35,393 bases of DNA. It comes from Paracoccaceae bacterium. GTDB taxonomy: Bacteria > Pseudomonadota > Alphaproteobacteria > Rhodobacterales > Rhodobacteraceae. The stretch is from assembly GCA_027484915.1 (NCBI GenBank), contig JAIXSA010000118.1, positions 1 through 35,393 on the forward strand, written 5' to 3'. Positions 8,786-26,989 of this stretch are shown one piece after another (position 1 is the first letter of the stretch; each line of letters opens with the position of its first letter). Both the position numbers and the translations under genes were made by a program. The notes under the pieces are model-generated. The model saw only the letters and a list, made by a program, of their open reading frames with translations. It was not told where the DNA came from and ran no database searches.

Positions 8786-10429
8786 CTAGCCTTGCAGCAA
8801 GGCCCGCGCCGCAGCGCGCGCGGCCTCGGTCACCGTATCGCCCGCCAGCATCCGCGCGATTTCTTCGACCCGTTCGGCTTCGTCCAACCCGGTGACGGTC
8901 GACAGCGTCTGCCCATTCGCCACCCGCTTCTCGACCCGCCAGTGCCGCGCGCCAAACGCCGCCACTTGCGGCGAGTGCGTCACGACGAGCACCTGCGCGC
9001 CCTGGGCCAGCGCCTTCAGCCGCCGTCCCACCGCATCGGCCGTGGCCCCACCGACGCCCCGGTCGATCTCGTCGAAGATCAGCGTCAGGCCGGAGCTGTC
9101 GCCCGTCAGGCAGACCTTCAGCGCCAGCAGGAACCGCGACAGTTCCCCGCCCGAGGCGATCCGGTTCAAGGGTCCAGAAGGCGCGCCAGGGTTCGTGGCC
9201 ACCGTGAAGGTCACCGCATCCACCCCCTCTGGCCCCGGCTCCCCTGCCGTCACCTCGGTCGCAAAGACTGCCCGCTCCATCTTCAGCGGTGCCAGCTCTG
9301 ACGCCATCGCCGCATCCAGCTTCTTCGCCGCCACGACCCTGGCCTGCGTGACCCGAGCCGCCTCGGCGGCATAGGCACCCTCGGCCTCGGCCACAGCCAT
9401 CCCCAGCTTCGCCAATCCTGCCGCGCCGCCGTCGATGGCCGCCAGCCGCGCCCGAAGCCCGTCGGCAAACCCACCAAGGTCATCCGCCAGCACGCCATGC
9501 TTCCGTGCCAGCGCGCGGATCGCGAAGAGCCGCTCTTCGACCCGCTCCAGCTCTCCGGGATCGAAGTCCAGCGCGTCCAGCGCGCGCTCCACCCCGTCCT
9601 GCGCCTCACCCAGCTCGATCAGGGCTCGGTTCAAGGCCTCCATCGGCGCGTCGAGCCGCCCTTCGGCCTTTTCCGCCGCGCCATCCAGCCAGCGCAGCGC
9701 ATCGCGCATCCGGCCCTCGGCGCCCTCGTCCGACAGGGCCACAAGCGCCTTCGCCACATCCTCGCGGATCCGCCCCGCGCCCTGCATCAGCCGACGACGG
9801 GCGTCCAGCGCCTCGTCCTCACCCGGCTTGGGGTCCAGCTTGTCCAGTTCGGTCACCGCATGGCGCAGAAACTCTTCTTCGGCCGACGCCCGCGCCAGTG
9901 CCCCCTCCGCCTCGGCCAAGCGGGCGCGCGCCTCGCGCTGTGCAGCCCAGGCCGCGCGCAAGGGTCCAAGATCCAGCCCCGCGAAAGCATCCAGCAGCGC
10001 CCGATGTCCGCGTGGGTTCAAAAGGCCCCGGTCGTCGTGCTGCCCATGCAGCTCCACCAAGGTATCCGACAGGTCCCGCAAGACCTCGCCCGACACCCGC
10101 CGGTCATTCACAAAAGCCGTCTTGCGCCCGTCCGAGGCATTGACCCGCCGCAGGATCAGCTCGTCCTCGGCTTCGATCCCCGCTTCCTCCAGCACCACGC
10201 GCGCCGCATGGGCCGGGGCCAGATCGAACACCGCCGTCACCTCGCCCTGCGCGGCCCCCTGCCGGACCAGTTCCGCCCGGCCGCGCCACCCCAGCACGAA
10301 GCCCAGCGCATCAAGAAGGATCGACTTCCCCGCCCCCGTCTCGCCGGTCAGCACATTGAGGCCCGGCTGCAGCTCCAGGCTCAGCCGGTCGATGATCAGC
10401 ACATCGCGGATATCCAGGCTACGCAGCAT
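8786..10429 (-). CDS. recN: DNA repair protein RecN
   Basis: SMC-like ATPase acting early in double-strand break repair by recombination. 547 residues, usual family length. Seen: N-terminal MLRSLDIRDVLIIDRL, Walker A GETGAGKS at 29-36, a long Ala/Glu/Arg-rich coiled-coil middle (about 150-370), and the C-terminal ABC half with LNRIASGGELSRFLLALK (signature) followed by LIFDEIDRGVGG (Walker B) and a VVTHSPQVAA histidine switch. ATG start at 10429. It is the last gene of the lpxC-bamD-recN stretch; a small palindrome lies between it and bamD. Confidence 0.96.
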   Translation of the reverse strand: MLRSLDIRDVLIIDRLSLELQPGLNVLTGETGAGKSILLDALGFVLGWRGRAELVRQGAAQGEVTAVFDLAPAHAARVVLEEAGIEAEDELILRRVNASDGRKTAFVNDRRVSGEVLRDLSDTLVELHGQHDDRGLLNPRGHRALLDAFAGLDLGPLRAAWAAQREARARLAEAEGALARASAEEEFLRHAVTELDKLDPKPGEDEALDARRRLMQGAGRIREDVAKALVALSDEGAEGRMRDALRWLDGAAEKAEGRLDAPMEALNRALIELGEAQDGVERALDALDFDPGELERVEERLFAIRALARKHGVLADDLGGFADGLRARLAAIDGGAAGLAKLGMAVAEAEGAYAAEAARVTQARVVAAKKLDAAMASELAPLKMERAVFATEVTAGEPGPEGVDAVTFTVATNPGAPSGPLNRIASGGELSRFLLALKVCLTGDSSGLTLIFDEIDRGVGGATADAVGRRLKALAQGAQVLVVTHSPQVAAFGARHWRVEKRVANGQTLSTVTGLDEAERVEEIARMLAGDTVTEAARAAARALLQG

Positions 10430-23221: not shown

Positions 23222-23860
23222 TCAGCCGTTGCGGATCACGTGGTCCGCCGTGACCGACCCGTCCCGGACCAGCCGCCCGTTCGGCAGGTCGTTCTCCTCC
23301 AGCTTCGCGACGATCTCCGCCTCGGACAGCCCCAGCCGTTCCCACCGCCCCCGCAGCCGGGCGCGCAGCACGTGTTCCGGGACCTCGACCATCACCGTCA
23401 CGTCGAACAGCGGCCGCAACCGGTCCCAGGGGGCCTGGTTCAGCAGAAGCCAGTTCCCCTCGACCACGATCACCGGCACGTCCTTAGGGATCAGCCGGGC
23501 CCCCGCCCGCGCGATCTCGATCTTGCGGTCGAAGACCGGCACCGAGACCTCCTCCTCGTCCCGCGCCCGCAGCCGCTGCAGCGTATGGAAAAGCCCCCCC
23601 ACATCAAAGGTCATCGGAGCCCCCTTCCGGGGCCGCAACCCCGCCGGGACAAGGTACAGGTCGTCGTAATGATACCCGTCCATCGGCAGCACTGCCGCCA
23701 TCCCCGGCTGTCGCGCGTTCAGCTTGCCGACCAGCTTTTCCGCCAGCGTCGACTTTCCCGAGCCCGGCGCGCCGGCGATGGCCGCGATCACCCGCCCGGC
23801 CGCCGTGCGGGCCTCCAACACGTCCGCCAGCCCCTTGAGCTCGATCCCCTGCCCCGTCAT
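23222..23860 (-). CDS. P-loop sugar/nucleoside kinase (uridine kinase-like, FrcK/YggC type)
   Basis: Small cytoplasmic phosphotransferase of the uridine kinase/pantothenate kinase fold. 212 residues. Seen: Walker A GAPGSGKS (30-37), LPMDGYHYDDLYL (59-70) typical of this group, RKGAPMTFDVGG, PVFDRKIE (108-115) and VVEGNWLLLN (132-141). The closest groups I recall are FrcK (fructose kinase of rhizobia) and E. coli YggC; substrate cannot be decided. ATG at 23860 has GGAGG five bases upstream, which settles the start although the frame is open to 24028. No sugar transporter lies nearby. Confidence 0.87.
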   Translation of the reverse strand: MTGQGIELKGLADVLEARTAAGRVIAAIAGAPGSGKSTLAEKLVGKLNARQPGMAAVLPMDGYHYDDLYLVPAGLRPRKGAPMTFDVGGLFHTLQRLRARDEEEVSVPVFDRKIEIARAGARLIPKDVPVIVVEGNWLLLNQAPWDRLRPLFDVTVMVEVPEHVLRARLRGRWERLGLSEAEIVAKLEENDLPNGRLVRDGSVTADHVIRNG

Positions 23861-24042
23861 CCGCGCCTCCCGACTTCCCCGAACCATGCGCAACCCGGCC
23901 CGCCCGCGCAAGGCGGCGATTGCGCGGCGTTCAATCCTTCCCGCTGCAGCAGAAGGACCTGCCCCGCGCCTTGACCGTGCTTTGTTCAGCGGCGCGTGAA
24001 TTGCCCGGTTCGTTCGTGCCGGGTCCATCCCACGTGATGGGG

Positions 24043-25176
24043 TCAGAACCTCATCGAGTAGCTGGCCGAAACACCACCAGCTCTGGTGTCCTCGAAAATG
24101 TCACCTCCAGAAACTTCAACCGTAAGCGTCCCCGAACCCAGCGAACCGGTCAGTCCCAGCGAACCCCGGCTTGTGCCAAGATAGCTCTCTCCATCAATGG
24201 CGGAACTCCGTCCAGATCGAGCAAACGCGACTTCCGCATACGGACGCAAGTCACTCCCGTTCAGCCCTGTCCTGGGTGCGGCACGAATGCTGGCGGCTGT
24301 CGACCAAAACCGCCGCTTGTCATCGTCGAAGGTACTGGCGCCTTCGGAATGGGCGGGCACAGTCTCGGCGTACCCACTTACCCTGATCCCGGGGGACCAG
24401 ACTATCGAGCCTGTTTCCAATGATCCTGTCAGGCCGACCGAGCCCATCACTCGACGACTTTGGAAATTAGAACCAGCCACGGTGTATTCAGGCGCCGCAA
24501 AACCAAGGTGTGCATCAAGCAGGATGCGCTCAGCAAGCTTTGCCCCCACGTAGCCCCCGGCTGCCGGGGCGCGTGCGGCACTGTCTTGCTCTTCTTCAGA
24601 CACCCTGGACCAGTCGTAGGCCAAGTAGAAGCCCCCGATAACATCGCGTCCAATGCCCGTATCCGCGCCTACCGTAAGGTTGCCGCCGTAGCCGTCATCG
24701 CTTTCAGAGAACTGAAGCGTTGACGAGCTTGCCCAGACAGTCCATTCCCGATCAGCTCCGGGAGTGGAGACCCAATCAGGGCTCACCGTCGGCGTTCCGC
24801 CAAGTTGCGCGCGCACCCTGGCCCCAACCGCATCCGTAACGGACAAGAGCTGTGTCGCAGCATTTGTGTCGGAAACACCATTCGCGCTTACTGCAACACA
24901 CACAACCAGATGCAGAGTGCTTTCCTTCTGGATGTTGTAGTCGGACAACGTCCGACTATCTTCCAGCTCCGTACCCGCAAAGATCAATCTTTGCTGATCC
25001 GGAGGAATGCCTTCCTTGTCCTGAATCTTGGCCTTTACATTCTCGATCGTGTCCGACGGCTCGACATCCAAGGTTATGGTCGTGATGGTCAGAGTCGTGA
25101 CGAAGATCTGCATCGCGTGGGCCGGGGCGACCAAGGCAAAGGCGAAGGCGGCACTGACGAGGATCGTACGAAACAT
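24043..25176 (-). CDS. Exported ubiquitin-autotransporter fusion
   Basis: 377 residues in three parts. Residues 1-21 form a Sec signal peptide ending AHA. Residues 22-92 are a ubiquitin domain identical to eukaryotic ubiquitin at 63 of the first 70 positions; changes there are K6T, G10I, K11T, E16D, K48T, Q49E and G53S, and the LRLRGG tail is replaced (VCVAVS). Lys27, Lys29, Lys33, Lys63 and the Leu8/Ile44/His68/Val70 patch remain. After a linker with one helix (about 103-126), residues 144-377 show alternating strands and end in SYSMRF with a terminal Phe, as in autotransporter outer-membrane barrels. Inferred: ubiquitin displayed on, or released from, the cell surface. ATG at 25176 with weak ribosome-binding site (GGA). 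Divergent from the ion-channel gene. A longer upstream frame would disrupt the signal peptide. Confidence 0.92.
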
Positions 25177-25723
25177 AAGGACAGTCCGTTTAGCATGCCA
25201 GACCTTGTTGCCCTTGTTCAGTACGGATTGGCAAAACATCTAAAGTTCAGCACTTGATCGCATTGGTTCTGCAAGACGCTTCTGCCGCGGCACGGCGTCG
25301 CCACAGCAGGCCGTTGCCCGATTGCCGATCCAAGGACATCAGAAGAAGACCTCACGCTTCTCAAAACAGGTGCGATACCCCAGCGGAGGGGGCCAAGACC
25401 ACCACCCAACGGTTCGTCATGCCAATAACAACGCGAGGGTTCTCCTGCTTTCTTACATAGCCGGTCTCTTCAAGCAGGGGCGCATGATATCACGCATGAT
25501 GGGCCTCGATGGGGCGGACACCTAAACGAAATTGAAAACGCAAAACTTTCGCGCGGATGCGGTGTCGAAAGACGGGATTGAGCGGCGCATCAAACAGAGT
25601 GAACGTCCCGCCGCTGTGCCGGGGACAAGATCGCGCGGCCGCCACAATCGAAAAACAGTTGGAGAAGGTCCAGAAGCGGTCCTATCGCCAGCCTTGCGCC
25701 AGAACCGGGAGCATCGGACCAAA
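25177..25723. other. 547-base divergent intergenic region of the accessory patch
   Basis: Separates the ubiquitin-autotransporter gene (minus) and the ion-channel gene (plus). Open frames here show no recognisable protein. It has a direct repeat CGCATGAT at 25481-25488 and 25493-25500 (12-base period) overlapping the palindrome TGATATCA (25485-25492), which is operator-like. No promoter on either side matches consensus well. No transposase, terminal repeats or integrase were found. Confidence 0.5.
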
Positions 25724-26761
25724 ATGAACCATATCAACCGACTAATTCGGATAACGGCATTTGCCGCCATGACATTTGCTGCCTTGTGGCTCGGCGCTGC
25801 CACCAAGTCATCCGCGCAGGCGGAAGCGGCTGGCACCATTTCCCCGATGGGCGAGCAAGCCGCATCAGCTCAGATCGTCAATGTCGGGATGTACGTCAAC
25901 ACGGTTTATCAACTGGAAGTGGCAAGCTCCACCTACTACCTTGATGCCTACCTGTGGTTCAAATGGAAGGGCGACATCGATCCAACCGCGACGATGGAAA
26001 TCACCAATCTGGTGGAAGAATGGGGCGCGATGGTTACGGCTTTGAACGAAGAGCCGATTTTGATGCCTGACGGATCAAAGTATAAACTGCTGAAACTGGA
26101 AGGGCGTTTCATGCAGCCTTTCGTTTTGGCGGATTATCCGTTGGATAAGCAGAAACTGTCTGTCTACCTTGAAGACAATACATATGGGTCAGATCAGCTT
26201 GTCTACGTGATGGATACCGAGGGCAGCGGCTATGGCCACATGTTGGCTATTCCCGGATGGCAGATCAACAATTGGTCTTCACAGCAACTCATTCATGACT
26301 ACGGAAGCTTCTTTGGGGCCGAAAACGCTGGCAGTGCATCGACCTATTCGACGCTCCGCTTCGATCTTGAGATTTCTCGCCCGGTAAACTTCTTTATCTG
26401 GAAGTTGATGCTCCCGCTGCTCATCCTGCTGTTGGCCTCGTGGATGGTCCTGTTCCTCAACCCGAAACAGATCGACGTCCGCACTGCATTGCCTGCAACG
26501 GGCCTGCTGACCGCCGTGTTCCTGCAGCAATCCTATTCGGATGGCTTGCCAGAGGTCGGTTACCTGGTGCTGATCGACAAGATCTATGCAGTTGCCTATG
26601 CGTTGGTCCTTTTGACGCTCCTTCGCGCGATCTGGACTGCAAGAGCGGAATTGGACAGCGCGGCGTCCTTGGCGGCAGCACGGAGTACGGACCGCAAGCT
26701 GCTCGTGGGTCAGGTTGCGCTCTTTGTCGTCGCAGTGGCCGTCATCGTAGTTGCACGTTGA
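25724..26761 (+). CDS. Pentameric ligand-gated ion channel homologue (Cys-loop superfamily)
   Basis: 345 residues, close to GLIC and ELIC. Residues 1-33 are a signal peptide ending SAQA. The extracellular beta-sandwich (about 48-218) has GMYVNTVYQLEV, YYLDAYLWFKWKGD and FVLADYPLDKQKLSVYLED (133-151), matching the 'Cys-loop' region without cysteines as in other prokaryotic members. M1 lies at about 221-245, M2 at 252-270 (VRTALPATGLLTAVFLQQ), M2-M3 loop SDGLPEVGYL, M3 at 283-306 and M4 at 327-343. Inferred: an inner-membrane channel opened by a periplasmic ligand; the ligand and ion selectivity are unknown. ATG 25724 was chosen for the signal peptide; the frame opens at 25532. G+C is lower than in neighbours (26 of 60 in 26161-26220). 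A terminator follows. Confidence 0.9.
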   Translation: MNHINRLIRITAFAAMTFAALWLGAATKSSAQAEAAGTISPMGEQAASAQIVNVGMYVNTVYQLEVASSTYYLDAYLWFKWKGDIDPTATMEITNLVEEWGAMVTALNEEPILMPDGSKYKLLKLEGRFMQPFVLADYPLDKQKLSVYLEDNTYGSDQLVYVMDTEGSGYGHMLAIPGWQINNWSSQQLIHDYGSFFGAENAGSASTYSTLRFDLEISRPVNFFIWKLMLPLLILLLASWMVLFLNPKQIDVRTALPATGLLTAVFLQQSYSDGLPEVGYLVLIDKIYAVAYALVLLTLLRAIWTARAELDSAASLAAARSTDRKLLVGQVALFVVAVAVIVVAR

Positions 26762-26772
26762 CTTGAACGTCG

Positions 26773-26805
26773 GGGCGCCCGGTCTTCCGGGCGTCCTTCC
26801 TTTCC
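26773..26805 (+). terminator. Rho-independent terminator after the ion-channel gene
   Basis: Stem GGGCGCCCGG / CCGGGCGTCC (10 pairs including one G-T) with a TCTT loop, followed by TTCCTTTCC. It begins 12 bases after the stop codon. Confidence 0.8.
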
Positions 26806-26989
26806 GGCGACAAGCCGTCTTGATGTGACGCACCGTTGCCTGTCACCAGCCTGGCAGGCTGTGTGGTAGATGCTACCCCACACCGTCATCATATGATTGA
26901 TCCAGTCTGGTCGGCATCGTTGTCCCGGCGGCAGAGGGGCGGGTAGCGCCAGCCCTCGGGTTACCAATCCGTAAATGCCCACAGACAAC

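Follow-up and report, generated by a model that had tools for sequence, protein, structure and literature searches.

The gene described here runs from 24043 to 25176 on the minus strand of a 35,393-nucleotide contig of a Paracoccaceae bacterium, the whole of which we call the window. It lies between a mur/ftsW cluster and uvrD and encodes 377 amino acids plus a stop, with an in-frame ATG at 25239 as an alternative start. The initial annotation had seen a signal peptide, a near-eukaryotic ubiquitin and a barrel in this one gene, an observation that our analysis confirms. Residues 1-21 (25114 to 25176, minus strand) form a putative Sec signal peptide, as had been proposed, with a hydrophobic core and the motif AHA followed by ubiquitin Met1; the call was made by direct reading and a hydrophobic core score, and the cleavage site was placed by motif rather than by a dedicated predictor. 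The ubiquitin domain follows at residues 22-92 (24901 to 25113, minus strand). It belongs to the ubiquitin family by both sequence and fold (PF00240) and is 90% identical to human ubiquitin across 70 residues, with K6, K11, K48 and R72 replaced. Ubiquitin residues 71-76 read VCVAVS and the chain runs on for about 285 more residues, so that the C-terminal diglycine used for activation is absent. In the linker (residues 93-144; 24745 to 24900, minus strand) a helix is predicted at residues 104-125 with low confidence (block-mean pLDDT 44-51); it occupies the place of the pore helix in autotransporters, and the alignment with NalP starts at residue 105. The remainder (residues 145-377; 24046 to 24744, minus strand), judged from a structure model and comparison, is a predicted 12-strand outer-membrane barrel whose last residue is F, so structure prediction returned both of the folds that had been anticipated. 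This barrel is homologous to those of two relatives, L082 and L083, which match PF03797 at 8.8e-12 and 2.3e-18, respectively; the window protein itself has no direct match at E <= 0.1, and a third relative, L139, scores 25.4 bits where the cut-off is 26.

The window protein thus combines a signal-like N-terminus, a ubiquitin fold at the very start of the mature protein, a translocator-type barrel and the loss of the conjugation tail. An N-terminal Sec signal and a C-terminal 12-strand translocator barrel are the marks of classical (type Va) autotransporters, and the best explanation of the gene is that it encodes such a protein with ubiquitin as its passenger. The layout is that of NalP (1uyn), EspP and EstA (3kvn), in which a signal peptide, an N-terminal passenger, a pore-helix region and a C-terminal 12-strand barrel ending in F follow one another, the pore helix being only tentatively assigned in the window protein. 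Unlike other type Va autotransporters, the passengers of which are typically beta-helices or enzymes, it carries a 71-residue ubiquitin, and its barrel has diverged too far for a direct Pfam match. The Bil operons for bacterial ubiquitin-like conjugation also include ubiquitin-fold proteins, which are cytosolic and come with E1, E2 and protease partners; in contrast, the window protein is predicted to be exported and has no diglycine, and a scan of the nine other window proteins turned up none of these partners. An E2 family search of the window's own genome gave no match, but the controls were silent too and the search is hence uninformative. A closer comparison is BfUbb of Bacteroides fragilis, described as having its signal peptide cut exactly before Met1 and its C-terminal glycine lost (PMC5705921). 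The window protein likewise has its cleavage site, by motif, at ubiquitin residue 1 and has lost the C-terminal glycine. However, BfUbb is described as a free, antibacterial protein of 76 residues, 63% identical to human ubiquitin (PMC3352274), whereas the more canonical ubiquitin of the window is fused to an outer-membrane barrel. A secreted effector of the cyst nematode Globodera rostochiensis also consists of a signal peptide, ubiquitin and a C-terminal extension, but it is eukaryotic, and as described (PMC5705921) its extension of 12 amino acids is cleaved in the plant and includes no barrel.

The gene sits on an island of about 3.1 kb (23818 to 26960) with a GC content of 0.577, against 0.660 for the rest of the contig. 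In two congeners (G155 and G171) collinearity with the window stops after 23817 and is restored at 26974 or 26961, with about 130-145 bp in place of the island, which is therefore an insertion in the window. Horizontal acquisition, as the initial annotation had suggested, is therefore upheld by the low GC content and by the site being empty in two congeners. Both island genes are absent from all four congeners sampled, and the empty site was shown in two of them because the genes beside uvrD differ in the other two. In one congener (G175, locus L127) uvrD has about 75 extra in-frame codons between residues 370 and 373. GC3 is 0.69 in the ubiquitin part and 0.61 in the barrel, compared with 0.84-0.89 in the flanking genes, and the low values in both parts suggest that ubiquitin and barrel came in together. 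No convincing repeats were found at the island ends, a promoter scan found none, and no phage gene was seen on the island or, with Pfam, among the nine other proteins scanned beyond the first 19 kb of the window.

The second island gene (25532 to 26761, plus strand, likely start ATG 25724) is divergent to the ubiquitin gene and encodes a homologue of the pentameric ligand-gated ion channels, with matches to NCBIfam LIC (1.0e-15) and LGIC_1 (6.8e-14) that both fall under the curated cut-offs and a Pfam Neur_chan_LBD match of only 0.048. It was matched in 18 of 292 genomes of the order, the window's own included, and in none of the four congeners. The pentameric ligand-gated family, too, has eukaryotic counterparts. 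A second ion channel adjoins a ubiquitin autotransporter elsewhere in the family: at L131 (genome G271) an Ion_trans gene of polycystin-like type (8994 to 9839, minus strand) lies about 180 bp away.

It had been proposed that ubiquitin was fused to the barrel after a recent acquisition of its gene, and here our results disagree. The same ubiquitin-barrel fusion is found in two other genera of the family (L082 and L083) at 33-37% identity, and on a contig with phage genes (L139) at 67% identity across residues 21-283 in the frame of 398 residues. The ubiquitin part shows a pS of 0.64-0.78 across the three comparisons that involve the window gene. Between the window and L139 the ubiquitin part has a pS of 0.64 and an omega of 0.10, and omega is 0.14 for the barrel and 0.50 for the linker, which changes faster than either. 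Among 21 pairs chosen by hand, as were the 18 rows of alignment A2 (complete non-window rows of alignments A1 and A2 being one C-terminal residue short), omega could be computed for 19. It was 0-0.20 for ubiquitin in 18 of these, and lower for ubiquitin than for the fused tail in 18 (in L009/L053 by a hair), the exception being L006/L053, with few changes. L009 and L053 are ubiquitin autotransporters from a single MAG (bin-499), each on a contig of its own, with ubiquitin parts identical at 63 of 70 positions. Ubiquitin is thus under strong purifying selection where this is measurable, and the barrel is under purifying selection as well. Given the pS and omega values, near-identity to eukaryotic ubiquitin reflects constraint rather than recency, at least in these pairs; the island is new to the genus and the fusion is old. 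In the 292 genomes of the order, three (own included) have the ubiquitin fusion and nine more have the barrel family without ubiquitin, seven of the nine with a different N-terminal part in the frames shown. Ubiquitin therefore seems to have taken another passenger's seat.

The fusion is not a one-off either. An exact search with the seed KAKIQDKE found 159 stretches that encode relatives in 84,980 species genomes, and the best 80 were kept as loci, a procedure that favours similarity to the window and by which ubiquitin residues 27-34 are conserved partly by construction. In 76 of these best 80 of 159, ubiquitin Met1 directly follows the end of a signal-like stretch. Of the remaining four, L050, L062 and L077 lack a signal peptide, retain LRGG and are possibly of eukaryotic origin; the frame of L009 begins too late for a signal to be recognised. 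Among 79 ORFs with this signal-then-ubiquitin start, only 3 have GG at residues 75-76, a number that rises to four if L068, whose C-terminus reads LRLRGG behind an insertion, is included. A domain scan covered 78 proteins, namely 75 encoded at 72 of the 80 loci (L065 supplies four; L048, L050, L062 and L077-L081 are absent) together with those of the window, L082 and L083. Pfam ubiquitin was matched in 78/78, Autotransporter in 21, SLH in 4 and NCBIfam IPTL-CTERM in 3. The 70 C-terminal regions fall into 24 groups, the largest of 24 members (window included; Autotransporter matched in six of the seven members scanned singly) and the 23 others small. Bare exported ubiquitins of the BfUbb type also occur (L036, L045, L065, L068 and L073). 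In Pedobacter cryoconitis (L065, 8001 to 9400) four exported ubiquitin genes stand in tandem, each of which stops near ubiquitin residue 72-73.

Among the 87 rows compared with human ubiquitin are those of the window, L082 and L083 as well as L050 (four repeats), L062 and L077, which lack a signal; L064 and L068 were excluded because of an indel. Identity has a median of 64/70 over these rows and falls sharply at residues 73-76. The window retains L8, I44, H68 and V70, as do 81-94% of the rows, and R42, Q49 and R72 are down to 64-76%; we take all seven to have roles in ubiquitin recognition. Most surface positions are kept, and since almost all of the ubiquitin surface is conserved, no one binding face stands out. 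The rows of a tree of 80 ubiquitin domains (70 columns) come from records labelled with 13 bacterial phyla, many of them MAGs with labels that are unverified; for example, 347 of 370 tail residues of L010, a 'cyanobacterium', are common to a Methylophilaceae record. Only one of 76 inner branches is well supported, so that neither the number of captures from eukaryotes nor the order of fusions can be read from this tree, and the autotransporter label is not clustered on it (69 of 500 shuffles were as low). The class is rare, since of 398 genomes of the window's phylum only the window's own matches the Pfam ubiquitin model. Plasmids gave two matches. Individual genes of the class carry an annotation, for example 'ubiquitin family protein' in a Ruminococcus albus 7 plasmid record. 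In the open-access literature, searched by titles and the starts of abstracts among the matches listed, with few subscription journals, there was no autotransporter ubiquitin and no phage-borne exported ubiquitin.

The neighbours of these genes are lineage-specific, with no immunity or partner gene common to the ubiquitin family, and the largest neighbour cluster comprises 12 loci at varied distances from the ubiquitin gene. At L002, L003, L010, L014 and L032 a conserved protein of about 330 amino acids (Pfam match in none of four tested) lies 12-75 bp from the ubiquitin autotransporter frame. At the Firmicute-type loci L007 (7549 to 7971), L025, L031 (5119 to 5739) and L064 (plus strand) a small lipoprotein-like or membrane protein is encoded at most about 30 bp upstream of the exported ubiquitin; neither of two tested had a Pfam match, and a homologue lies 2-3 kb away in L026 and L038.

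By analogy with established autotransporter biology, the window protein would be exported by Sec, its barrel would insert in the outer membrane, and the ubiquitin would be carried outside, to be held at the cell surface or released from it. A concern about display is that a fast-folding passenger could stall translocation. Once outside, a ubiquitin that cannot be conjugated may serve as a ligand for ubiquitin-recognising proteins of grazing or hosting eukaryotic cells, acting as an adhesin or a decoy, and the module may spread among bacteria on mobile elements, phages included. This eukaryote-facing role, which the initial annotation had also raised, is the hypothesis that we favour, with a probability near but not quite at even, and we place it ahead of an antibacterial one by a small margin. 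Two points decide the preference: the canonical surface is retained almost in full, much more so than in BfUbb, and numerous members have a fused tail that is long or provides a surface anchor. The SLH (4/78) and IPTL-CTERM (3/78) anchors also count in its favour, as do the fold, the breadth of the family, the low omega of ubiquitin and the retention of L8, I44, H68 and V70. Against it are the changes at K6, K48, Q49, L71 and R72 of the window ubiquitin, positions which presumably form the rim of the recognition face.

The main alternative is that competing bacteria are the target of the ubiquitin, whether it is displayed or released. BfUbb, the sole exported bacterial ubiquitin that we found with a tested function, has the same layout and is described as antibacterial within B. 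fragilis, the synthetic mature form being active (PMC5705921), and this speaks against a ligand for eukaryotes. Oyster ubiquitin without its two glycines is bacteriostatic according to a review (PMC10892293). The distribution of the class is patchy and mobile, as a weapon's could be, and bare exported ubiquitins occur among the relatives. A target of BfUbb has reportedly been identified in a later study. However, most complete relatives have a long tail (at least 60 amino acids after ubiquitin in 60 of 73 ORFs), some with a recognised surface anchor, and the median of 64/70 matches to human ubiquitin contrasts with the 63% identity given for BfUbb (PMC3352274). The lack of a neighbour gene common to the family would also argue against a weapon, yet BfUbb itself appears to need no immunity gene (PMC5705921). 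We regard an antibacterial role as a serious possibility, although a less probable one than a ligand for eukaryotic proteins.

In principle, ubiquitin could be no more than a stable, fast-folding N-terminal domain that aids export or shields the protein fused to it, with a surface that has no partner. That ubiquitin heads mature proteins with widely differing tails (24 groups for 70 C-terminal regions), and that the same barrel family occurs without it in nine further genomes, is consistent with such a cap. The surface of a scaffold would be expected to drift, yet the low omega values and the retention of most surface positions indicate otherwise, and we consider this explanation improbable.

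Another possibility is that the gene is a phage-carried accessory gene which alters the lysogen surface, for example to exclude other phages, and that the copy in the window was left behind by such traffic. Of seven relatives on viral contigs, five have a signal peptide and two, without one, resemble ordinary or repeated ubiquitin. In L139 the ubiquitin autotransporter is about 470 bp from a phage methyltransferase gene, which is followed by terminase and portal genes. In L140 and L141 a signal-peptide ubiquitin lies 0.4-0.5 kb upstream of terminase genes; the two contigs are 99.5% identical over 2.7 kb (the first 2.7-3.1 kb) and then continue into two different packaging modules, and along that region L142 and L140 are collinear at 92%. 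L140 and L142, both scanned, have an IPTL-CTERM tail, and in L143 the exported ubiquitin is at least 1.7 kb from tail, tail-fibre and baseplate genes. Exported ubiquitin is thus phage cargo in at least some cases. However, the barrel homology of L139 breaks off about 100 nt before the contig end, the window island shows no phage gene, and 50,697 annotated phage records gave no match. Among 100 neighbours of other loci, picked by hand from 174 (150 displayed) that are part of 702, no terminase, portal or tail family was present in the 25 of 51 PHROG families shown, 17 of these 25 being without description. A phage function at the lysogen surface thus seems as unlikely to us as a structural cap. 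A chimeric assembly or eukaryotic contamination might be suspected in a draft genome of 173 contigs, the more so as three of the 80 loci may be eukaryotic DNA, but it is hardly credible with the in-frame fusion conserved in L139, L082 and L083, island ends that are clean against two congeners, and signal-peptide ubiquitins in records not marked as MAGs (Saccharibacillus, Ruminococcus albus, Dyella and Iodobacter, for example).

Textbook ubiquitin is an intracellular modifier of eukaryotes with one well-studied bacterial exception. Here, to judge from the sequence, is a bacterium built to show ubiquitin on its surface, and exported, mostly diglycine-less ubiquitin recurs in records labelled with 13 bacterial phyla and on phage contigs. 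Returning to a ligand for eukaryotic proteins, it is plausible, although somewhat less likely than not, that the export of near-canonical ubiquitin that cannot be conjugated is a widespread bacterial strategy, in which a mobile and partly phage-borne surface module, carried by autotransporters in Gram-negatives and by other anchors elsewhere, would act as a trans-kingdom ligand towards eukaryotic grazers or hosts. What extracellular ubiquitin recognises now becomes a testable question, and these proteins may offer a natural surface-display system for ubiquitin.
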